From Desulfuromonadales bacterium (lineage in GTDB: Bacteria; Desulfobacterota; Desulfuromonadia; Desulfuromonadales; UBA2294), in contig JAUVAJ010000027.1 of the NCBI GenBank assembly GCA_030591795.1, positions 1-10,269 of the forward strand: a stretch of DNA of 10,269 bases, in the 5' to 3' direction. Positions within the stretch are counted from its first letter, which is position 1, and each line of letters begins with the position of its first letter. Below, piece after piece: positions 1 to 10,269 of this stretch. The position numbers were made by a program, and so were the translations under genes. Under the pieces are notes generated by a model. It did no database searches and was not told the DNA's origin. It saw only the letters and a list, made by a program, of their open reading frames with translations.

Positions 1-391
1 TAGTGCGCAATTTCAGGCGTTCCTCGGTTTCCAGCAACTGCAGTTGTGCCAACTGGATCTCGGTTTCAATTTCATCCTTTTCATGGCTTGAAATCAGCTG
101 TTTTTTATACAACTCTTCATTCCGTTTCGCTTTACGCAAACCGAATTCAACCCGAGCCTTGGCCAAATTGACCGCAGCTTCTTCAACTCCGGATTTCAAC
201 TGAGTCAGAACTTGTCCGCGCTGTACGCGGTCACCCCGCTCAACATTTATCTGTTCGATAATGCCGGGCACCTGGCTGCTGAATTCAACCAACTCATTCG
301 GTTCGATCATCCCCTCTAGTGACGGCACCTCGACGGCAAAAGCCGGGGACGAGACGAAGACAAAGAAAAATAACAATTGACAGAATTTCAT
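1..391 (-). CDS. RND/HlyD-type periplasmic adaptor subunit, N-terminal part, 3' end outside the window
   Basis: Translation from ATG 391 gives 130 residues running off the window edge. GGGAG in the 11-nt gap after the SecA-like stop is the ribosome binding site. Residues 1-19 are a signal peptide (MKFCQLLFFFVFVSSPAFA) with a good AFA cleavage site. Residues 35-66 form the first lipoyl half-motif (EFSSQVPGIIEQINVERGDR, then VQRGQVLTQL). Residues 67-130 are a charged helical hairpin (LRKAKRNEELYKKQLISSHE is typical of this position in efflux adaptors). It differs from the two other HlyD-type proteins of the operon in being exported by a simple signal peptide, with no membrane helix or fused domain. 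It would bridge an inner-membrane component to an outer-membrane channel, neither of which is seen here. The outward-reading genes just beyond could include an RND pump or an outer-membrane factor. Confidence 0.85.
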   Translation of the reverse strand, partial: MKFCQLLFFFVFVSSPAFAVEVPSLEGMIEPNELVEFSSQVPGIIEQINVERGDRVQRGQVLTQLKSGVEEAAVNLAKARVEFGLRKAKRNEELYKKQLISSHEKDEIETEIQLAQLQLLETEERLKLRT

Positions 392-402
392 AATTTACTC
401 CC

Positions 403-2397
403 TTATTCCAACTTACCGGAAAATGACAGCAGATTCCCCTGCTGTTGATCCTGACGAAACAATTCCCTCCTGATCCGGGCATGATATTTTTCCACACTCA
501 CTTGAGCCTGACTGATCGCCCTGCGCGCCAGAGGCTGCATAACTCCCAAGTTGGAAAAATCTATCCCTTTTAACAACTGTGCAATCAGACCGCCACGAGC
601 GCCATCGAGCAACGGATCTTCTAAAGAGAGGATTGCCTGATAACTTCCGGGGTCACCCTGCCGCCCGCAACGTCCTGCCAACTGACGATCGATCCGTGCC
701 GCCTCATGCCGCTCGGTCGCGATAACATGCAAGCCCCCTATTTGACGCACCCCTTCACCCAGCACAATATCGGTCCCCCGACCAGCCATATTGGTGGCAA
801 TGGTGATACTTGCGGCGATACCGGCGGCACTGACAATATCAGCTTCATCGGCGTCCTGCTTGGCATTTAGCACCTGGTGCTCCAGACCGGCCTGACGAAC
901 CAACGCTGACAAGTGTTCAGATGCAGCAACCGATCGGGTTCCGACCAACAGCGGACGTCCCAGATGATGCAGTCTACAGATTTCGGCGACGACAGCTTGC
1001 CATTTCTGCTGCTGAGTCGCCAACACCCGATCCGGCAGAATCTTGCGGATGATCGGGCGATGAGTTGGAACCTTCAACGTCGGCAGGTGATAAACCGCCC
1101 AGAGTTCAACAGCAACCTCTTTGGCTGTCCCAGTCATCCCAGATAGCTGGCGGTAGCGACGGAAGAAACGCTGATAGCTGATCTTCGCCAAGGTTTCCCG
1201 GCGCTGGGTCAGTTCGCAGCCTTCTTTCAGTTCGATCAGCTGGTGCAGTCCCTGTTCCCAGGATCGATCTTCCATCACCCGGCCGGTAAACTCGTCAATA
1301 ATCTGCACCTTACCATCACGCAACAGGTACTGTTCATCACGATGGAAAAACTGTATTGCCGTCAAGGCCTGATGTACCGTCGATTCACGCCGCACCAGAC
1401 CACTCCAGAGTGGCCCAAGTTGACTTACCGCAGCAGCGATCTTTTGCTTGCCGACATCCGTTATGCGTAATTGTCGCCGCGCCGAATCGAGCACATAGTC
1501 ATCCCCTTTGCTCAGCTCAGCTGCCAGATCAAGAGCCTGTTGCAGAAACTGTCGTTCTTCATCCCCGCCGTCCGCACCGGAGATAATCAAAGGCGTCCGA
1601 GCTTCATCAATCAGAATACTGTCGGCTTCATCGACAATAGCAAAATGCAGACCCCGCAGCAGGACACGTTTGCTCCGTTGGCTCTCTCCATGCAGGTATT
1701 CTGCCTGTAAAAGCAGCGGATCGAGTCGATCCCCCAAGGTCAGTCGATCCCGCAGGTAATCGAAAACCAGCTCCTTATTGGTCGCATAAGTCACATCACA
1801 CTGATAGGCCCGACGCCTTTCAGCCGGCGTCTGCCCGTGCACCACACAACCGACCTGTAGCCCGAGAGCCCGGTAAAGCGGCAGCATGGTCTCGGTATCT
1901 CTGGCGGTCAGATAGTCGTTGACGCTGATCACGTGCACAGGTATCCCGGCCAGTGCAACAGTGGCAGCCGGCAAGGTCGCGGTGAGCGTCTTTCCTTCGC
2001 CGGTATCCATCTCTGCCACCATCCCCTGCAGCAATACCAGTCCGCCGGTGAGCTGACTCGCGTAGGGGCGCATGCCCAGTGTTCGGACACTCAGTTCTCG
2101 AACCAAGGCAAAACTACACACCAGCAGCTCATCAATCATTCCGTCGATGTGCAGTTGTTGTCTTAATTGCTGGATCTCCTGTTGTAACTGCTGATTATCC
2201 AAAGCTTGTAACCGCGGTTCGGCAGCTTCAATCCGGGCAACCAAACGCCGCAATCGTCCGCGACCGGAAAAGAGTTTTCGCAGCTGTCCGAAAACTCGGT
2301 GAGAAAAAACTTCCAGTTTTTTTTCCACACGATCCGGCTGTTCCGCGCGCACATCATGGGTTGCCGGGGGGATATGTAGGTTTGAAACGACAGCCAT
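403..2397 (-). CDS. SecA-like export ATPase, shortened paralogue
   Basis: The product is 664 residues from ATG 2397, which lies 8 nt after the previous stop with AGGG upstream. An ATG at 2460 would force a 55-nt overlap and add 21 residues unlike SecA, so it was not chosen. All SecA motor motifs are present. The Walker A segment is EMDTGEGKT (119-127; the usual residue before TGEGKT is Lys or Arg). The Walker B region is VDEADSILIDEARTPLIISG (245-264). Further motifs are LSGMTGTA (408-415), TNMAGRGTDIVLG (525-537) and GRCGRQGDPGSY (566-576). A preprotein-binding region falls at about 220-360. The protein stops just after the start of the helical scaffold (VEKYHARIRRELF). The helical wing and the C-terminal zinc-binding tail are absent, against about 900 residues in housekeeping SecA. 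It is therefore an accessory SecA-like motor, probably for one substrate class. Placement among HlyD-type adaptors supports a dedicated export role. Confidence 0.93.
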   Translation of the reverse strand: MAVVSNLHIPPATHDVRAEQPDRVEKKLEVFSHRVFGQLRKLFSGRGRLRRLVARIEAAEPRLQALDNQQLQQEIQQLRQQLHIDGMIDELLVCSFALVRELSVRTLGMRPYASQLTGGLVLLQGMVAEMDTGEGKTLTATLPAATVALAGIPVHVISVNDYLTARDTETMLPLYRALGLQVGCVVHGQTPAERRRAYQCDVTYATNKELVFDYLRDRLTLGDRLDPLLLQAEYLHGESQRSKRVLLRGLHFAIVDEADSILIDEARTPLIISGADGGDEERQFLQQALDLAAELSKGDDYVLDSARRQLRITDVGKQKIAAAVSQLGPLWSGLVRRESTVHQALTAIQFFHRDEQYLLRDGKVQIIDEFTGRVMEDRSWEQGLHQLIELKEGCELTQRRETLAKISYQRFFRRYRQLSGMTGTAKEVAVELWAVYHLPTLKVPTHRPIIRKILPDRVLATQQQKWQAVVAEICRLHHLGRPLLVGTRSVAASEHLSALVRQAGLEHQVLNAKQDADEADIVSAAGIAASITIATNMAGRGTDIVLGEGVRQIGGLHVIATERHEAARIDRQLAGRCGRQGDPGSYQAILSLEDPLLDGARGGLIAQLLKGIDFSNLGVMQPLARRAISQAQVSVEKYHARIRRELFRQDQQQGNLLSFSGKLE

Positions 2398-2405
2398 CAG
2401 CAGCC

Positions 2406-4550
2406 CTAAATCGCGAAACGGCTCAGCAACATACGCCGCAGCCCCCGGTACCAGCGCCACGCCAACGGTTCCGGAGAATGTTCAAAACGGACGAACACCC
2501 GCTCCTGAACCTTATCTGCCAAAGATTCCGTAAGTTCGATGTCAAACTGAAACAGCCGCTCCAGCGCTTTCGGCCGCTCCGGCTCACGAGGATCGAGGAC
2601 ATAGAGGCCGCCGCCCTCCAGACTGAGTGCCAGACTCGGCAATTCATAACTGGCGGCTGGAACTTCACGGATCACAGCAGCCGGGATCACAGAATCAATC
2701 TGCTCCGCTAAGCGAACTTCAACGTTGCGGGTATCAGCACGAACCCGTTCGATATTCGCCTGGGGCACCAACACTCGGATACTCATTTTATTAGGGTCGA
2801 GAATATATCCGAGCGACGTCCCGCGCCGGACAAACTGGCCGAACAGGTCCTCAGCCTGCGGAAGCACAAAAACACCAGCCGCGTTGCTGCGTAATAACAG
2901 CGACTGCTGCCGTTCATGAGCGCGGGCCAGTTCAGCTTCAATACGGCCCAATTCTTCTTTCAACAGTGCTGATTCAGTCCGTTCGGCAAGCAAACTCAGG
3001 CGATAGCGTGCTTGATATTCCTCCAGACGTGCTGCCAAGAGCCGAACCTGAGCCGCTAACTCAGGATTTTCAGATCGAAGCAACAGGGTGCCGGGTTGGA
3101 CCTGATCACCACTGGTGCTGAGGATTTCCGCAACAAAACCATCCGTCTCCGCATAAACCTGCGACTCATCCGGAGCCCACGTCACGCCCTCACAATTTGT
3201 GTAGAGTGGTACAGGAAGAAAGCACAAGCCTGCCGACAGCAACCCCAGTGGGACCAAGATGGTTAAAAAAATCCGGGCTCTTTTTCTTTGCATCTTCGAA
3301 TCCTTGAGCAGAAAACCAGCTACCTGCAGCAACGGCTTAACCAGCATGCCGAAACCAGCCCAGACCGCAAACACCACGCCGATGAAAAAAAACTTTCCGG
3401 CAACAAAGAGGATGATCCGGATTGAAATAAATATGCGATAAACGAAGGATGCCAGGGCATAGCCAAACATCCAGCCAGCTTCTCCCGGTGCCGTTGCCGG
3501 TGATTCTGAGGTGTTGACACCGAGCAAGTAACGTTGGCAGAGATAGCCGATGTAACGGTTACTGCGCTGTCCTAGATTTGGAATCTCCAGGTAATCGGCC
3601 AGTACATAATAGGCATCGAAACGCAGCAGCGGATTGCCGTTGAACAGTAACGTCGAGATCCCAGCGATCAGCATGACATTAAAAGCTGCGGCACTTATCG
3701 CACCCTGCTCGACATTCAACCAGACCAGCAGCGCCAGAGCGGCAACAAACAGTTCGATCAGAATCCCCGCAGCACCGACCAGCATCCGCTTACGTTTCTC
3801 GCGAAAAGCCAGTGAGGAAGAAGCATCAACATAGGGGATCGGCATAAAAACCAGCAGCATGATGCCCATTTCATGGACCTCGCCGCCCCATTTTTTAACC
3901 ATATAGGCATGACCGAACTCGTGCAGAAGTTTTAGCAACGGATAGATCAAGCTAACCAGTAACAGATTCTCCAAACTCAGTAGCTGGTCGGTGAAATTCG
4001 CCATAAGATCCGACCAGTGCAGCATCGCCAGCACCGCCGCAATAGCAACGACACCGAGCCAGACAAATAGTGCCGGCCAACCTAAAAAGGGGCTTAAAAG
4101 CGGCAGGGTTGCAGTTAAAAAACGATCCGGATCAAGCAATGGAAAGCGCACCGACATCGGTGAACGCAGGTTTGCCAGCAGCCGATTGCGCTGCCCCTGG
4201 TCTTGCCGCTGCTGCAGTTCGGCAAAATCGGGGAGTGCACAGGTCTGCAACAGGTCGGAACGGAACAGTTGCGAAAGCAGCCCGATCACCTCATCCTGGG
4301 TCGGCATATGATCACCGAGCCGCGCGCAGGCAGTCTCCCAGATCGTGCCGAGAGTGCGCCGTCCGTCCATCAAGCCGATCAACTGATAGGCTTCCGGAGA
4401 AAAGCGGTGGTGGCGGCCGGTAAAGCGATCCTGAATGATGTACCAGTTGTCCCCGCGATAGCAATGCTGATGGATTTGCACATGACTGCGCAAGCGCGGC
4501 TTAAGCGGCGCCACCCGGTACCAGGACTGGCTGAAGAGCGATTCACTCAT
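2406..4550 (-). CDS. PqqD-like / M50 (site-2) metalloprotease / HlyD adaptor fusion
   Basis: The product is 714 residues from ATG 4550, which has GGAA 6 nt upstream. An in-frame TTG two codons earlier (4556) is less likely. Residues about 25-105 resemble PqqD, a peptide-binding winged helix (NWYIIQDRFTGRHHRFSPEA). Several membrane helices follow (about 145-430). The M50 zinc motif HEFGH is at 200-204 (LLKLLHEFGHAYMVKKWGG). The matching distal motif FNGNPLLRFDAYY (293-305) provides Asp302. Relatives usually have FDGYY, and here Gly is Ala. After the last helix (about 417-437), residues 440-690 form a HlyD-type periplasmic part: lipoyl half GFVAEILSTSGDQVQPGTLLLRS, coiled coil 490-545, and second half LRSNAAGVFVLP. 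M50-HlyD fusions are known from peptide-export clusters. The PqqD-like part may bind substrate in the cytoplasm. It lies 26 nt after the GAF-HlyD gene and 8 nt before the SecA-like gene. Confidence 0.9.
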   Translation of the reverse strand: MSESLFSQSWYRVAPLKPRLRSHVQIHQHCYRGDNWYIIQDRFTGRHHRFSPEAYQLIGLMDGRRTLGTIWETACARLGDHMPTQDEVIGLLSQLFRSDLLQTCALPDFAELQQRQDQGQRNRLLANLRSPMSVRFPLLDPDRFLTATLPLLSPFLGWPALFVWLGVVAIAAVLAMLHWSDLMANFTDQLLSLENLLLVSLIYPLLKLLHEFGHAYMVKKWGGEVHEMGIMLLVFMPIPYVDASSSLAFREKRKRMLVGAAGILIELFVAALALLVWLNVEQGAISAAAFNVMLIAGISTLLFNGNPLLRFDAYYVLADYLEIPNLGQRSNRYIGYLCQRYLLGVNTSESPATAPGEAGWMFGYALASFVYRIFISIRIILFVAGKFFFIGVVFAVWAGFGMLVKPLLQVAGFLLKDSKMQRKRARIFLTILVPLGLLSAGLCFLPVPLYTNCEGVTWAPDESQVYAETDGFVAEILSTSGDQVQPGTLLLRSENPELAAQVRLLAARLEEYQARYRLSLLAERTESALLKEELGRIEAELARAHERQQSLLLRSNAAGVFVLPQAEDLFGQFVRRGTSLGYILDPNKMSIRVLVPQANIERVRADTRNVEVRLAEQIDSVIPAAVIREVPAASYELPSLALSLEGGGLYVLDPREPERPKALERLFQFDIELTESLADKVQERVFVRFEHSPEPLAWRWYRGLRRMLLSRFAI

Positions 4551-4576
4551 ACGCAATTCCGACGTTCACCATCATC

Positions 4577-6415
4577 TCAAGGCAACCAGCGCCACAGCGT
4601 TAACTGAACCCACTCCAGCAAATCGCGGGTCCAGATCGATATCAGCTTGCGCCGGTCGATAAAAATCTTGCCGACTCCCTCCATCCCCGGTCGCAGACTG
4701 TCGTCAACCGTTTGCAGGTGAGCCTCAACCCGAAAGTAGTTACGCCCCTCCTCGGCCTTGGTAATCGGAGTAATTTTTGCCACGGTAAATAGATATTGCT
4801 GATTTGGCAAAGACGAAAGAACCAAAGTCCCCTGCTGCCCAATCTGCACATCAGCTATCCGGCGCTCATCAACCTTGAGAATCACCCGGTAGGCATCAAG
4901 CGGTGTCACCTCGAACAAGATTTCCCCTTGCGCCACCGCACTTCCAAGTCGTTGGCTCAGGTCACCACTGACCAGCAGTCCGGCAAACGGTGCCGTCAAT
5001 CTACTCCGCTCCAACTTGGCGACAATCAAGTCGAGCTCGGCTTGAGACTGATCCAGTTGCGCTTTGATAATCTTGGCCTGAGCGCTATCATGCTTGGCAA
5101 CCGCCTCCTGATACTGCCGATCCAGCTGCCGTTGCTGACTGTTTTTAGCCAGCATTTCCAAGCGTAAGTCGCGGTCGTCCAGAGAACAGAGCAACGCTCC
5201 TTGCTCAACCAGATCCCCGGCGCGGGCCGGAGCCTGATCAATAAAACCGTTAAAAGGCACCACCACCGCCCGACGGATTGCACCTTCCAGGGTCATATCG
5301 GCAGACAATCGATAATCCCATTCGAGCACACTAAGGCAAGCAATCACTCCGATCAGCAGCAGTAAAAACAGCTTGCGTCCGAAATAACGTGGACCGAACA
5401 GACGTTGTAATTGCTGCTGGGCGGCTGCTTTGAATTTAACCGGCAGTGGTTGGTCATTTAAATACTTACTCTCCAACGCCGGGCCGAGCAAAGCAGCGAT
5501 CGCTCGAAAAAATTCGACATCCCGCTCAGTGAAAGGTCGATCGGCGGCTCGTTCGCAGGTCAGCGCACCGTAATAGCGTCCTTGTCCGTATAATGGAAAA
5601 CTGATAATCGCAGCCATCGATTGCTGACGCGACAAGGCTTCGTGTTCGCGACAGATCAGCACCTCTTCTTCAATCGGCGGATAAGAAACTTCGCGCCGTT
5701 GCAGGATCGCTTCTTCCATAACCCGCTCGATGGCACGGGTCAGGTTCATCTTCCGGCCAACCTCAGCACTGTGGGAAACGGCCTGCAGTTTAAGCTTACG
5801 GCCACGCAAAAAACCGAGACTGACCCGTTCACACTCACTGGCGGCAGACAGCTCGGTGGTAAAAGCCATAGCTGCCGCAGCAAAACTTTCTTGTCCCAGA
5901 ACCACGGCAAGCATATCAACAGCGGTCTTCAATCGGTGCAGAGTAGCCTGGCCCTCGTCGGCCTGTTTGCGCCGTACCAGCAACTCCAGCCAGGCGACCC
6001 CCCACTGCAAATGCTCCATCGCTCTTTGCAGCTCAACTTCAGCCGAGGCAGAGACTTCCAGCGCCACCACGCCACACAAATCATCATCAACCAACAACGG
6101 ATAGGCAATGGAGTAGTTTGCAGAGTCCGGCAATTCGACCAGCAGCCCGCAGTTCTCTTCCAGCACACGTTCAACGACATCGGAAAGCCGTTGTGGCTCG
6201 CTCCCACTTTGCGGCCAACCGGCAACCGGCATAAATTGTTTATCTGCCGCGGCAACAATCAACAGACCCTGAACGACACCCGGAATCAGCCCGCTCTGTA
6301 ACGCCAGCCAGCCTTGATAATAGTCCTGCTCACTGCAAGCAGCGGTGAAATCAGCCCAGAGCTTCGGTGTATCCCTCTGCGGTTCCTCAATGGTTGCGGT
6401 TTCAACGATGCTCAT
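4577..6415 (-). CDS. GAF domain / HlyD membrane-fusion protein chimera
   Basis: This 612-residue protein has a long soluble N-terminus. Residues about 30-150 look like a degenerate GAF-type domain (SIAYPLLVDDDLCGVVALEV). Residues about 160-318 match a second, clearer GAF domain (MAAIISFPLYGQGRYYGALTCER, then RPFTERDVEFFRAIAALLGPAL). One membrane helix lies at about 347-364 (FLLLLIGVIACLSVL). Beyond it is a HlyD-type adaptor: lipoyl half-motif about 380-412 (VVVPFNGFIDQAP, GDLVEQGALLCSLDD), helical hairpin 415-470, second lipoyl half 472-505 (LTAPFAGLLVSGDL), beta-barrel, and the family signature LRPGMEGVGKI at 574-584. By orientation, GAF is cytoplasmic and HlyD periplasmic. GAF modules usually bind small ligands or mediate contacts, so this could couple cytoplasmic state to an export conduit. 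The ribosome binding site is weak. Translation may depend on coupling to the upstream gene, 7 nt away. Confidence 0.88.
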   Translation of the reverse strand: MSIVETATIEEPQRDTPKLWADFTAACSEQDYYQGWLALQSGLIPGVVQGLLIVAAADKQFMPVAGWPQSGSEPQRLSDVVERVLEENCGLLVELPDSANYSIAYPLLVDDDLCGVVALEVSASAEVELQRAMEHLQWGVAWLELLVRRKQADEGQATLHRLKTAVDMLAVVLGQESFAAAAMAFTTELSAASECERVSLGFLRGRKLKLQAVSHSAEVGRKMNLTRAIERVMEEAILQRREVSYPPIEEEVLICREHEALSRQQSMAAIISFPLYGQGRYYGALTCERAADRPFTERDVEFFRAIAALLGPALESKYLNDQPLPVKFKAAAQQQLQRLFGPRYFGRKLFLLLLIGVIACLSVLEWDYRLSADMTLEGAIRRAVVVPFNGFIDQAPARAGDLVEQGALLCSLDDRDLRLEMLAKNSQQRQLDRQYQEAVAKHDSAQAKIIKAQLDQSQAELDLIVAKLERSRLTAPFAGLLVSGDLSQRLGSAVAQGEILFEVTPLDAYRVILKVDERRIADVQIGQQGTLVLSSLPNQQYLFTVAKITPITKAEEGRNYFRVEAHLQTVDDSLRPGMEGVGKIFIDRRKLISIWTRDLLEWVQLTLWRWLP

Positions 6416-6422
6416 AAGTGAC

Positions 6423-6971
6423 TCATTTCAAACGTTTCTGTGTTGGTTGACGAAACTGTTTTTCTACATGCTGTGCAAGTAATTCGTGAATACTTTCCGG
6501 CGGTCGTTTATGAAAAAAATGATGAATGACCACGTGCGCCAGTTCGTGGGCCAGCACCCTGATATTAACTTTATTGACCGCAAGATAGACGCTGTTCTCA
6601 TCTGGCGAAAAAAAAGCAATATAACCGACATGGGCCGCAAACTGATTTTTGTAAACCGCCTGAACCTCTACCTCTGAAGGCAACAGTACAATTGACAAAT
6701 CGCTGCGCGGGGGATGCATATCCAGGATTTCCTGCACCCGACCGTAAACCAGATCAAGCTTGTTACTCACTTCATCACTCAACAACAATTTGCTTCTCTG
6801 TCTGCCCAACGAATTGGACAGCCCCAACCGGACCCGGCTGTTAAACTGCTGTAACCGCTTTTCATCCTGAAATTCCAGACGGACCAAGCGGGTTTTTAAC
6901 TCGGCAGCCTGATTTGGTGCCGGCAACAGGGTGCAGAGCAGGAGAATGATGATAGCGACTTTCAGGTTCAA
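6423..6971 (-). CDS. Small secreted HExxH metallopeptidase-like protein (peptidase MA-like)
   Basis: The product is 182 residues from TTG 6971 (186 if TTG 6983 is used). Residues 1-22 are a Sec signal peptide (MNLKVAIIILLLCTLLP, likely cleavage near NQAA). The mature part contains VLAHELAHVVIHHFF with the zinc motif HELAH at 132-136. Downstream PPESIHELLAQHVE supplies Glu153 as a plausible third ligand, 17 residues after the second His. This order is typical of gluzincins, and the P...I.E.LA.HVE form resembles the peptidase MA group. The preceding segment (QFAAHVGYIAFFSPDENSVYLAV) looks like the edge strand that lines the active site. It probably works in the periplasm on exported protein or the cell envelope. 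The substrate is unknown and activity is not shown. It sits 1 nt after the HAMP gene and 7 nt before the GAF-HlyD gene. Confidence 0.75.
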   Translation of the reverse strand: MNLKVAIIILLLCTLLPAPNQAAELKTRLVRLEFQDEKRLQQFNSRVRLGLSNSLGRQRSKLLLSDEVSNKLDLVYGRVQEILDMHPPRSDLSIVLLPSEVEVQAVYKNQFAAHVGYIAFFSPDENSVYLAVNKVNIRVLAHELAHVVIHHFFHKRPPESIHELLAQHVEKQFRQPTQKRLK

Positions 6972-6972
6972 G

Positions 6973-7536
6973 CTACCCCTCAATCTTCAACTTGTATCTA
7001 CTTAATATTTCGTCTATTTTACCCATTGCTTGCCGAGCATCATCCAACTGATCCCGGCGCAAGTTCTTTTCCAGCAATGCAGACAAATCTTGCAAACTTT
7101 TCACATCCGCAGAATATAAACTGGAGAACTCATTAATATCATTAGCCAGACTACGACCGACATCCTTAGTTCGCAGATGAATGTGCTGATTCAGGTCTCT
7201 TTGCCGTAACCCCTTGAAAACCGTTTCAAAACGATAAAGCGGTCCGGCAAATGCGTGACTGACAAAGAGCATTAACACCGAAACGACACCACCACCGAGG
7301 ATGATAAAAAGCCAATTGGCCTGAAACAGTTCCTTGATCAACACAGAGGGGGTAGCACCGACGCGAAATTGCTGATCAGTATAAGAGATGGTCAAATGCT
7401 CCGAGGAGAGCAAACCGAAAATCAGGGTAAAGAATGCAACGCCAAGGATACTGAGCAAAAATACCCAAAAGATCATTTTGCCCTGTAATTCCTGATTGAT
7501 GAAATAGTTCCGTCGCTTATAGCCACGCGCCATCAT
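6973..7536 (-). CDS. Two-TM membrane protein with HAMP domain and no output domain
   Basis: This 187-residue protein has a basic N-terminus (RGYKRRN). A first membrane segment lies at about 21-43, a short extracytoplasmic loop at 44-64, and a second membrane segment at about 65-88. A HAMP-like linker follows (about 88-140, starting AFAGPLYRFETVFKGL and including LRTKDVGRSLANDINEF). The last 45 residues are predicted coiled coil. The architecture is that of a chemoreceptor or histidine kinase cut after HAMP. There is no MCP signalling tip, kinase or cyclase domain. It may transmit a signal across the membrane to a partner or act structurally. The ATG at 7536 overlaps the previous stop. The second ATG at 7533 is better spaced from the GGGGG ribosome binding site and may be the true start. 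Confidence 0.75.
   Translation of the reverse strand: MMARGYKRRNYFINQELQGKMIFWVFLLSILGVAFFTLIFGLLSSEHLTISYTDQQFRVGATPSVLIKELFQANWLFIILGGGVVSVLMLFVSHAFAGPLYRFETVFKGLRQRDLNQHIHLRTKDVGRSLANDINEFSSLYSADVKSLQDLSALLEKNLRRDQLDDARQAMGKIDEILSRYKLKIEG
6976..6981 (-). promoter_or_regulatory. Ribosome binding site deciding a TTG start
   Basis: GAGGGG on the minus strand is followed by the stop codon TAG of the HAMP gene, one base, and then TTG at 6971-6969. The alternative in-frame TTG at 6983 lies just before the GAGGGG and has only a poor, too-close purine run. The 6971 start also gives a compact signal peptide. Confidence 0.65.
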
Positions 7537-8291
7537 TCACCCCCGTTTTTCAATTTCTGCTGCGGATAACGAACGATCGCCTGTTCACGAACCCGCAGAA
7601 TCCATTCTTCAAGTATTTTTTGTTGCAGCAGATAGTGTAAGTGCTGTCGCAATTCATCGTCCGAGATGACTGACTCTTGGAGCTGCGGCAGTACTTCAAT
7701 CTGATCAATCTGAATACGCACATAATCTGCACCATCAGCAAACGGAGTTGATAGCTCACCGGAGCGCATCGACAACAAGCGAACCTGTAGCGCTTCGGGC
7801 AAGACAACAAAATCTTCGATAAGCTGCTGCTCCTGTGCTGCTTCTCCAGCGAGCGCCTGCTGATAAGACTGGTAGCGCAACAAGGTCAAGCGATAACGCA
7901 GGTGCTGAGCTTTGCGGAAATTGGCGAGGTCCGGCTCCGAAAGCTCTATCGGTTGTTCAAGCTGTTTTCTGTCGAGCAGGGTTTTTACCAGCGATTGTTC
8001 AAAAAAATCCTTAATCAACCGTTTAAACTGATCTTCGTCGGCAATTCCGGACTTAATCGCCTCCTGAATCAGTACTTCACGCAGCACCAAATCATCAATA
8101 AATTCATTCTGATCGCGATAATGATACGGCTTCTGTTGCCACATCTGCTGCAATTCGGCAAAAGGAATCACCCGTTCGTTAACCACCAGGGCATTTTCCC
8201 CCGGCGGCTCACCGGAGCCTTTATAGCTGATGACTCCATAAGCGCAGGAGATCAACAGGATAATGCCGAGGATGAAGTAGATATATTTCAT
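7533..8291 (-). CDS. PpiC/SurA-like periplasmic foldase-type lipoprotein
   Basis: The product is 252 residues from the ATG at 8291 (259 from the weaker ATG at 8312). Residues 1-16 form a lipoprotein signal: hydrophobic core plus LISC lipobox with Cys16. No Asp follows the Cys, so outer-membrane sorting is possible. Residues 26-130 resemble the helical SurA/PpiC N-terminal domain: VVNERVIPFAELQQ, then a FIDDLVLREVLIQEAIKSGI segment. Residues about 120-195 look like a reduced parvulin (PPIase) domain. Its closing part is recognisable (SGELSTPFADGADYVRI), but the central parvulin core seems missing, so isomerase activity is doubtful. A final helix region contains LLQQKILEEWI. As first gene of the operon it probably acts as a periplasmic chaperone for exported protein. 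Its TGA overlaps the next ATG (ATGA). Confidence 0.75.
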   Translation of the reverse strand: MKYIYFILGIILLISCAYGVISYKGSGEPPGENALVVNERVIPFAELQQMWQQKPYHYRDQNEFIDDLVLREVLIQEAIKSGIADEDQFKRLIKDFFEQSLVKTLLDRKQLEQPIELSEPDLANFRKAQHLRYRLTLLRYQSYQQALAGEAAQEQQLIEDFVVLPEALQVRLLSMRSGELSTPFADGADYVRIQIDQIEVLPQLQESVISDDELRQHLHYLLQQKILEEWILRVREQAIVRYPQQKLKNGGE

Positions 8292-8595: not shown

Positions 8596-8937
8596 TTATT
8601 CAGTTTTTTTTTCCGGAACATCCAAGTGCAGTTCGCCAAAGCGTTTTTCATACTCCTGCACGGTATTCATCAACAGAAGAGCCAACCGTTTGGCCGCATA
8701 CGGATTAAGGGTCATCCGGTCTGACAACTCAATGACGAGCTCCTTCTGCCCCGCGTGCCAGTTCTGATTGGTGCCGAACAGCAGAGTGACCTCTTCGCGG
8801 CTACTTGACACGTTGCAAACGTTGGCATAGGTGCTCTTCATCTTCGATCCATCCCAGCGGATGGTCGGTTTAGTCGATTTTTTCTCTTCTGCTGTTACGA
8901 CAGTTTCGCCTTCTGCTTTCTTTGCTTTTTCAGACAT
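8596..8937 (-). CDS. DUF3467 family protein
   Basis: This gene encodes a 113-residue soluble protein with no signal peptide or membrane segment. Residues 1-25 are charged and probably disordered. Residues about 35-97 match my recollection of the DUF3467 pattern: an N-V-C-N-V-S-S strand region, V-T-L-L-F-G-T, V-I-E-L-S-D-R-M-T-L-N-P, then an amphipathic helix A-A-K-R-L-A-L-L-L-M and a final Y-E-K-R-F-G. The biochemical function of this family is not known to me. The ATG at 8937 overlaps the RTX stop (ATGTCTGA). An AGGAAAG stretch about 5 nt upstream, inside the end of the RTX gene, serves as ribosome binding site. A strong terminator follows 24 nt after the stop. Coupling to the RTX gene suggests a partner role, for example a cytoplasmic chaperone or regulator of the large protein, but that is inference. 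Confidence 0.8.
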   Translation of the reverse strand: MSEKAKKAEGETVVTAEEKKSTKPTIRWDGSKMKSTYANVCNVSSSREEVTLLFGTNQNWHAGQKELVIELSDRMTLNPYAAKRLALLLMNTVQEYEKRFGELHLDVPEKKTE

Positions 8938-10269
8938 TTTCTTTCCTTTTGAGTTCGGTTTTGATTATCGGAGACTCGACATTCAGGTATTGAACTGTTT
9001 TAGTTGCGTCGTTTCCGGCCCAGCCGGATTTGCTCAAATGCCCATCCTGCCAGCGCCAGAAGCGCGCTTTCTCTTTTGGAGTATCAAGGTCAAGCAACTT
9101 GGCCGTGCCGGTTTTTTTGCGCTGGGAAGACGTTACCCCCCAACCGACAAATCCGGCTACGACAGCTTTCAGCGAATCAGCACTGTCGGTCTGTTTTTCT
9201 TCAGGGACTTCCGGTTGTTCCATCTCTTCGGGTGCTTGATCCCGGTCTTCCTCATTTTCGTCTTCGAGAATCGGCTGTTCCGATTCTACCTCTTCAACTC
9301 TTTCCTCCTCGGGCAGTTTTTCTACGTCCGGGCTCGGCTGATCGACATCCTCCGCCGCCTGCTCTTCCACTTCATCTTCCGGCGGATGCTCTTCCACTTC
9401 ATCTTCCGGCGGATGATAGCCTAAGCCATAGCCCTGCCGCTTGGCCGCAGAAGAGGCATCGGAACCATGATGTGTCGGGCGTTGGTCGGTGACCAACTCA
9501 GGACGTTGTGCAGCAATGAACTCACGCATTTGAGTAGGCAGAAGCACACTGCCCAGTTGAGACAATGAAGGAGTTAACGCCAACGGGTTATAAAGCCCGA
9601 ACTGACGGTTAGCGATCAGATCGAGGTTGCCCTGGCCAAGCCGGACCACCGTTTCAGCCGTATCCCCGTCCATCGTCAAGCGGGCATATTCGCCGATCAT
9701 CAGATCTTCGGTAAAATCACCGACAAAGGTGTCATCACCGTGACCACCGAACATAGCGTCAAAACCAGCGCCACCGTCGAGCCAGTCATTGCCACCGATA
9801 AAGCGATGCTCGTCGATGGTTTCGACTGTCCGCAGACGGCCAGATAAATAAGTCGCTCGACCTGCATCACCGACCATATAATCATTACCACTGTCACCAT
9901 AAAGCTGATCTGCGACCGCTCCACCAATTAGCAGGTCGTTTCCTGCTCCACCGTATATTTCATCTTCGCCGCCCAGATTCGGATCGCCACTGGCAATTTT
10001 AGATAACTGACCATTAAGGAAATCCGCTATCCCATTGTCGCCGATCAGGATGTCGTCACCTGCGTCACCATGCATTTCATCGTTACTGAAACCACCGATC
10101 AGCAGATCATTCCCTCCTCCTCCAGCCAACCGATCCTTGCCGCCAAACATCGGGTCGCCGCTGGCAACTTGCGCTAAACGCCCAGCGACAAAGTCGACTC
10201 GGCCGTTATCACCAAGTTGTACATCGTCACCTGCTCCAGAAACAACTTGATCATCGGCAACTCCACCGA
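8930..10269 (-). CDS. Large RTX repeat protein (haemolysin-type calcium-binding repeats), C-terminal part, 5' end outside the window
   Basis: The frame is open from the window edge to a TGA at 8932-8930, giving 445 visible residues. The ATG at 10150 is internal, because the same repeat pattern continues upstream of it. Visible residues 1 to about 190 carry glycine/aspartate-rich nonapeptides such as GGAGNDLLIGG and GDSGNDYMVGD. In the RTX family these bind calcium in a parallel beta-roll and occur in secreted or surface proteins. Residues 190-285 are less repetitive (contains LGQGNLDLIANRQFGLYNPL). Residues about 285-364 are extremely acidic and proline-containing. A short hydrophobic stretch (LKAVVAGFVGWGV, about 366-378), basic residues (QRKK) and a Trp-rich tail ending KRKENV follow. 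I see no clear classical type I secretion tail. The likely role is a large calcium-binding adhesin or surface protein, whose total size is unknown. It is translationally coupled to the next gene by an 8-nt overlap. Confidence 0.9.
   Translation of the reverse strand, partial: GGVADDQVVSGAGDDVQLGDNGRVDFVAGRLAQVASGDPMFGGKDRLAGGGGNDLLIGGFSNDEMHGDAGDDILIGDNGIADFLNGQLSKIASGDPNLGGEDEIYGGAGNDLLIGGAVADQLYGDSGNDYMVGDAGRATYLSGRLRTVETIDEHRFIGGNDWLDGGAGFDAMFGGHGDDTFVGDFTEDLMIGEYARLTMDGDTAETVVRLGQGNLDLIANRQFGLYNPLALTPSLSQLGSVLLPTQMREFIAAQRPELVTDQRPTHHGSDASSAAKRQGYGLGYHPPEDEVEEHPPEDEVEEQAAEDVDQPSPDVEKLPEEERVEEVESEQPILEDENEEDRDQAPEEMEQPEVPEEKQTDSADSLKAVVAGFVGWGVTSSQRKKTGTAKLLDLDTPKEKARFWRWQDGHLSKSGWAGNDATKTVQYLNVESPIIKTELKRKENV
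9362..9415 (-). repeat. Two exact 27-bp tandem copies in the acidic linker
   Basis: The segments 9362-9388 and 9389-9415 are identical 27-mers. They encode two successive nine-residue blocks of the form HPPEDEVEE in the acidic linker of the RTX protein. The period is a multiple of three, so copy number can change by slippage without breaking the frame. The exact identity suggests a recent duplication, unlike the diverged 171-bp units further upstream in the gene. Confidence 0.9.
9722..10269 (-). repeat. 171-bp (57-residue) tandem RTX supermodules
   Basis: Within the RTX gene the calcium-binding motifs sit in a higher-order unit of exactly 57 codons. The glycine of the GD[NA]G motif recurs at visible residues 19, 76 and 133, i.e. 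at bases 10213, 10042 and 9871. Two full units therefore span 10213-10043 and 10042-9872. A partial unit lies before them, at the window edge. A shortened, degenerate unit of about 50 codons (9871-9722) closes the array. Each full unit reads roughly GDNG, DF..G.L...ASGDP, GG.D...GG.GNDLLIGG, and GD.G.D...GD. The copies are diverged at DNA level, so the array is old rather than freshly expanded. It probably continues upstream. Confidence 0.85.

Follow-up and report, generated by a model that had tools for sequence, protein, structure and literature searches.

A four-gene core with a short SecA-like ATPase and HlyD fusions lies beside giant LEPR-XLL proteins: a candidate export system

Genes of the window and their conservation

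The window (the whole stretch of DNA analyzed here, 10,269 nucleotides) encodes nine proteins, all on the minus strand (Table 1). An earlier note, made from the sequence alone, had described seven of them as a co-directional operon, and the listed genes are present in the order and with the spacing that it gave; the likely ATG of the gene for the short SecA-like ATPase (position 2397) lies 8 nt past the stop codon of the M50-HlyD gene. Both domains of the GAF-HlyD fusion are confirmed by profile matches (by eye, the GAF domain precedes a single membrane helix and the HlyD part follows it), and the secreted HExxH protein has the motif HELAH, as described. The lipoprotein, whose start we set from its homologs in two other loci (L027 and L068), keeps its foldase label only as a weak SurA_N match, and the HAMP label of the small membrane protein is also weak, that is, a Pfam search gave no match and a likeness is seen only to a CpxA model. 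The Pfam search of the nine window proteins detected no ABC domain.

Table 1. Genes of the window, from the giant protein at one edge to the adaptor at the other.
Feature	Coordinates	Strand	Profile matches
Giant RTX repeat protein, C-terminal part, 445 aa, running off the window edge	8930..10267	-	HemolysinCabind matches
DUF3467 small protein, 113 aa	8596..8937	-	PF11950, E 1.5e-21
SurA_N-like lipoprotein, accessory	7533..8291	-	PF13624, E 8e-5, below cut-off
Small membrane protein, weakly CpxA/HAMP-like, accessory	6973..7536	-	NF007007, E 0.005 only
Secreted HELAH (HExxH) protein, accessory	6423..6983	-	SprT-like, E 0.056, below cut-off
GAF-HlyD fusion	4577..6415	-	GAF, E 2e-10; HlyD_3, E 1.5e-18; both above cut-off
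Fusion of PqqD-like domain, putative M50 intramembrane metalloprotease and HlyD	2406..4550	-	HlyD_3, weak M50, NF041824
Short SecA-like ATPase, 664 aa	403..2397	-	Pfam SecA_DEAD, SecA_PP_bind, P-loop_SecA
Periplasmic adaptor (MFP), truncated at the window edge	2..391	-	Biotin_lipoyl_2, E 1.7e-9

A near-identical contig in the nearest genome (G001:C151, locus L004) carries the complete adaptor (237 aa) and 966 aa of the giant. The note had suggested looking past position 1 for an outer-membrane channel; beyond the adaptor this contig has 471 nt left to its end, with no ORF of at least 150 aa, and a channel gene is not seen there. The window and G001 also differ in the giant's acidic linker (window ~9000-9400), by an in-frame repeat difference (HPPEDEVEE).

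Six aligned M50-HlyD proteins, used to scan GTDB contigs, gave at least 548 relatives, of which we kept the best 80, a choice that favors near kin of the query; by their record labels, these best 80 of at least 548 are mostly from the delta-, gamma-, beta- and alphaproteobacteria, with single records from Nitrospirales, Omnitrophota, Deferribacteres and, doubtfully, Chloroflexi. The M50-HlyD protein of the locus labeled Chloroflexi (L025) is 98% identical to that of the window; the label is probably wrong.

Counting only loci for which enough DNA was fetched, the GAF-HlyD gene lies upstream of the M50-HlyD gene in 71 of 74 loci, the SecA-like gene directly follows M50-HlyD in 73 of 77, and the adaptor follows the SecA-like gene in 57 of 66, with median gaps of 10, -8 and 9 nt, respectively (best 80 of at least 548 relatives). 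Where the SecA-like gene is not directly adjacent, it is present inside a longer overlapping frame (L086), 5.7 kb further on (L040), or elsewhere in the genome (L035 and L065). The trio of lipoprotein, HAMP-like and HExxH genes is rare: among 81 loci, L004 included (a set built on the best 80 of at least 548 relatives), it is complete only in L004, L027, L035 and L068, the SurA_N-like lipoprotein occurs in 4/81, and homologs of the small membrane protein occur in the same four loci; the HExxH gene is also found in the short locus L025, with HELAH or HEMAH in 5/5 copies. The core order is kept and the trio is rare, so the "seven-gene" unit resolves into a four-gene core (GAF-HlyD, PqqD/M50-HlyD, short SecA-like ATPase and periplasmic adaptor), which is the conserved unit, plus accessories. 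We therefore rejected the seven genes as a single unit; the co-occurrence that the note proposed to look for across genomes exists for the core, the trio being confined to few loci, and the upstream DUF3467 and RTX genes of the window also run in the same direction. The trio of L035 is placed after the adaptor, and the short SecA gene of this genome is on another contig.

Of 62 testable loci, 24 (best 80 of at least 548 relatives; L026-L163) have a gene for a DUF3467 protein located between those for the giant and GAF-HlyD. By eye we had suspected a SecB-like chaperone, a claim dropped on sequence evidence; a profile of 28 DUF3467 sequences matched no SecB in the PDB at E-values up to 10 and none in Pfam. 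An ABC ATPase is detected by motif within 2 kb in only 1 of the 80 loci, on the opposite strand (best 80 of at least 548), and an outer-membrane channel was not seen to be what usually follows in the SecA-type loci, where the first residues of the following ORFs of at least 300 aa were inspected by eye.

The short SecA-like ATPase and the PqqD/M50-HlyD fusion

The SecA-like ATPase is shortened, as the note had claimed. By sequence, its closest relative in the PDB is SecA2 from C. difficile, with an alignment that stops at residue 607 of 781 (37-43% identity to structures in the best 10 matches), and its predicted model matches 6itc, SecA bound to SecY and substrate, with 2.5 A over 595 residues, ending at residue 612 of 6itc. 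Pfam, the PDB alignment and the model agree that the protein shares with SecA and SecA2 the DEAD motor domains and the preprotein-binding domain; it differs in ending early in the scaffold helix, followed by a conserved tail of its own, so that the wing, the two-helix finger and the C-terminal linker are absent (the alignment and model end at ~607-612). In SecA, the part past residue ~612 holds the wing and the two-helix finger. The SecA ATPase motifs are retained in at least 95% of 67 sequences.

All 20 operon genomes searched, including G001, encode a second, full-length SecA beside the short one, and all 20 have a single SecY (that of G236 is in two pieces at contig ends); an accessory Sec system with its own SecY2 was rejected, as no second SecY was found in the 20. 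In a tree of 33 SecA proteins the full-length clade has a support of 1.0; across the root, on the side of the short SecA proteins, a label of 0.22 is probably displaced by re-rooting. In one genome (G250; L172 and L184) the short SecA gene and the LEPR-XLL giant each occur twice; perhaps machine and cargo were duplicated as a pair.

The giant could be exported by Sec; the short SecA would then be an accessory SecA2 that serves the one SecYEG, while the HlyD proteins would aid only passage of the outer membrane. The short protein is a true SecA homolog, closest by sequence to SecA2 and resembling in its model the SecY-bound form, and only one SecY is available as its partner; however, it lacks the part after residue ~612 (the wing and two-helix finger), and the LEPR giants have no strongly hydrophobic stretch near their start (vide infra), so we consider this route unlikely.

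In the M50-HlyD fusion of the window, HlyD_3 scores above its cut-off and M50 is weak (E 7e-4, below the gathering threshold), in agreement with the fusion proposed earlier. Two models of RiPP leader proteases, NF041824 (daptide) and NF058609 (LiaK/YydH), both match 62/62 M50-HlyD proteins; the window protein scores below both cut-offs (for NF041824, 157.7 bits against a 300-bit cut-off, over residues 20-405), and, unlike the daptide and LiaK/YydH M50 proteases, the M50 domain here is fused to HlyD. PqqD matches 35 of the 62. H212, E213, H216, N308, P309 and D314, presumably the catalytic residues, are invariant in the 62 sequences. An HExxH motif with a downstream Asp in a polytopic membrane protein characterizes M50 metalloproteases, and both are found here; by sequence and model the protein is a putative protease of this kind. 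The predicted model has long helices and an adaptor fold at residues 448-701, where most structure matches fall; some, at 10-106, are to the C-terminal parts of GdmN and Rv2067c, and missing structure matches for the PqqD and M50 parts carry no weight.

RTX proteins usually leave the cell via an ABC-type type I secretion system (T1SS), of which RTX repeats are a classic feature. The giant might leave through a standard ABC-type T1SS whose genes lie elsewhere, while the operon only matures it by cleaving a leader or makes an unrelated product; the RTX repeats fit this alternative, as does the match of the M50 half to RiPP leader-protease models, but the presence of three adaptor-type proteins, and of no ABC gene close by, points to a conduit more than to a protease on its own, and we regard it as very improbable. 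Type I secretion (HlyB/HlyD/TolC) does resemble the system described here in its HlyD-type adaptors and RTX cargo, and an outer-membrane channel gene also lies by several of the SecA-less loci (vide infra); it differs in having an ABC ATPase, which this locus lacks, and the tag of the cargo here is N-terminal.

LEPR-XLL giants beside the core

The LEPR-XLL giants that adjoin the operon begin with a basic stretch followed by FExLEPRxLLSAD, the tag recognized by the LEPR-XLL model NF012209. In the first 60 residues of the LEPR giants the best 15-residue mean hydropathy is 0.2 to 1.75; because hydropathy near the tag is low, a Sec signal is unlikely. Among the best 80 of at least 548 relatives, a gene of at least 900 aa with a visible N-terminal LEPR-like motif lies by the operon in seven loci (L060, L065, L074, L078, L081, L083 and L084); three further giants (L054, L090 and L102) were found by the motif itself, so the evidence is circular for those. 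NF012209 recognizes four of five giants scanned, L078 being below the cut-off.

A whole-genome search with NF012209, covering 48 operon genomes drawn from 50 of the best 80 loci, found a match in 40 of the 48 and in none of 14 controls. Of the eight negatives, six have a giant frame that is still open where the fetched DNA ends, and no more than 7.2 kb of contig follows; the variant of L078 scores below the threshold, and L070 has neither an open frame nor a variant. In 25/25 hand-picked cases with tag and operon on one contig, some matched by coordinates only, with the predicted end of the giant coinciding with the frame end in the locus, the giant that adjoins the operon is the frame with the tag; 19 lie upstream, 4 downstream and 2 divergently. 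In 19 of the 25, an unbroken frame of 1,593 to 15,584 aa extends from the tag and stops just short of the operon. Neptuniibacter caesariensis MED92 is one genome in which the giant adjoins the operon. The earlier note had proposed to look for giant repeat proteins near the operon, and LEPR-XLL giants do lie beside it in these 25 cases. A looser count of "giant" neighbors (46/62; a frame of at least 900 aa, or one open at the fetched edge) is not leaned on, since at least one of its frames (L095) starts like a helicase.

For the window itself, the N-terminus of the giant is not seen on its contig; homologs of its C-terminal part are found in 44 of 81 loci, L004 among them (best 80 of at least 548), and G001 has a single NF012209 frame (4309 aa), on C161, a separate contig from the C-terminal part. 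The giant RTX protein of the window is probably a cargo. In the last stretch of the giants, a VAGxxGW-like motif is present in 28 of 43 (window 8930-9300) and is perhaps a C-terminal sorting signal; the pattern was written after the alignment was seen, so it is a lead only. An extracellular motif, PF07595, is known from planctomycetes.

The tag and the M50-HlyD protein also co-occur in broader genome samples. In Desulfobacterota (n=197), NF012209 is found in 7 genomes, a strong M50-HlyD in 5 and both in 4, that is, the tag is in 4/5 genomes with a strong M50-HlyD versus 3/192 others (Fisher p 2.8e-6; 6e-5 without the center genomes; 1.7e-5 with M50-HlyD at 1e-20). In Gammaproteobacteria (n=232), both are found in 18 genomes each and together in 13, that is, 13/18 versus 5/214 (1e-13; 1e-12 and 5e-13, respectively). 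The cut-offs for "strong" were chosen after the scores had been seen (1e-20 is the looser cut-off), and the Fisher values are not strict because the genomes are related. At 1e-20, 9 of 14 Desulfobacterota and 20 of 36 Gammaproteobacteria genomes with M50-HlyD lack NF012209, and two Gammaproteobacteria have the tag with no M50-HlyD at this cut-off. The three Desulfobacterota with the tag and no strong M50-HlyD have a short SecA (G115 and G159, in the latter a contig-edge fragment) or two divergent M50-HlyD proteins (G131). In Alphaproteobacteria (n=241) the association is weak (p 0.06 without the center genome): NF012209 is in two genomes, both with M50-HlyD, and 14 of 16 M50-HlyD genomes (1e-20) lack the tag. 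Strong M50-HlyD genomes without an NF012209 match include variants of the tag: LESQERRILFSAD in L154 (G487) and VEPRLLFSAG in L156 (G493), in the gene after the adaptor.

A proposed export route for the giants

Ten distant M50-HlyD loci (L144-L153), in which a SecA-like gene is missing, have a GAF/HlyD-type gene in 9/10 and an adaptor gene in 8/10; the nine genomes behind them encode full-length SecA only. From five of the ten loci we selected five candidate channel proteins by eye, and all are OEP; LEPR-like giants adjoin L146, L147, L150, L151 and L152, and at the remaining five loci none was observed. As such SecA-less PqqD/M50-HlyD-type loci exist, the short SecA belongs to a single lineage of a wider system, and the necessity of the SecA-like motor implied by the earlier note is unsupported. 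In L144 (10773-12479), a gene for a ShlB/FhaC-type two-partner transporter lies just after the SecA-less M50-HlyD locus.

The nine genomes with full-length SecA only, and the OEP channels and LEPR-like giants each present by five of the ten SecA-less loci, are what would be expected if the SecA-like protein were an unfolding or regulating ATPase and not a motor, with a set of adaptor, M50-HlyD and channel, otherwise energized, exporting the giant; the adjacency of the SecA-like gene in the main clade (73/77 loci, best 80 of at least 548) and its retained ATPase motifs argue against this, and we judge it improbable.

We favor an export system that is dedicated to the LEPR-XLL giants, with a probability of roughly 0.6; the computed support consists of the conservation of the core genes and of the metalloprotease motif, the linkage to LEPR-XLL giants and the truncation of SecA. 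In this system, the PqqD-like domain of M50-HlyD would read the LEPR-XLL tag and the M50 metalloprotease would trim it; the short SecA-like ATPase may feed or pull the giant chain; the HlyD parts of the two fusions, with the soluble adaptor, would form a periplasmic duct that leads to a TolC-type channel encoded elsewhere; and the GAF domain may be a switch. Because the core order is kept, LEPR-XLL giants adjoin and ABC genes are rare nearby, a SecA-type motor in place of an ABC ATPase, as the note had proposed, is our best guess; motor action and export are both inferred. A narrower form of the proposal, in which the exporter is independent of SecY and comprises a finger-less SecA, the M50 protease and the HlyD fusions, with the PqqD-like domain reading the tag as RiPP leaders are read, is tentative, and we place it somewhat below even odds.

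The earlier note called the machine undescribed, but Kamneva, Poudel and Ward (2015; PMC4452313) had already reported, in the main text of their paper, secondary SecA_DEAD proteins without the wing-scaffold, encoded beside genes for M50-HlyD, GAF-HlyD and HlyD proteins; for this neighborhood they proposed SecA_DEAD as the ATPase and M50 as the pore, so that the motor idea of the note was already in print, and they called the biological role of the locus "completely unknown". The operon of the laboratory strain Methylobacterium extorquens AM1 (META1p2399-2402) is named in their paper. The present locus likewise has a wing-scaffold-less SecA_DEAD besides a normal SecA, with M50-HlyD, GAF-HlyD and HlyD/biotin_lipoyl neighbors; as far as that main text goes, the two share the same four core proteins, the loss of the wing-scaffold and the lack of an ABC gene. 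No cargo is named there (a term search of the main text gave no LEPR, RTX, PqqD, giant or DUF3467); the LEPR-XLL link and the PqqD domain are added here. A citing paper, in its accessible part, mentions Kamneva et al. (2015) only for orthologous groups. In the accessible parts of other papers, LEPR-XLL appears as a transcript name and in a Vibrio giant of ~8000 aa that also has RTX and serralysin domains. Our literature search, limited for subscription journals, found no paper linking the LEPR-XLL tag to a SecA/M50-HlyD machine, and a search of the daptide literature found nothing. The machine is therefore of a known but uncharacterized kind, and the link to a probable LEPR-XLL cargo is the new part.

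In the literature searched, the route by which LEPR-XLL proteins of thousands of residues, with no evident Sec signal, leave the cell appears open. The link between tag and locus gives the orphan locus of 2015 a cargo and the LEPR-XLL cargo a machine, and both can be tested. If the SecA-like ATPase does act as the motor, the use of SecA motors would extend beyond SecYEG; if the SecY-independent reading is true, this would be a type of secretion energized by a SecA motor.
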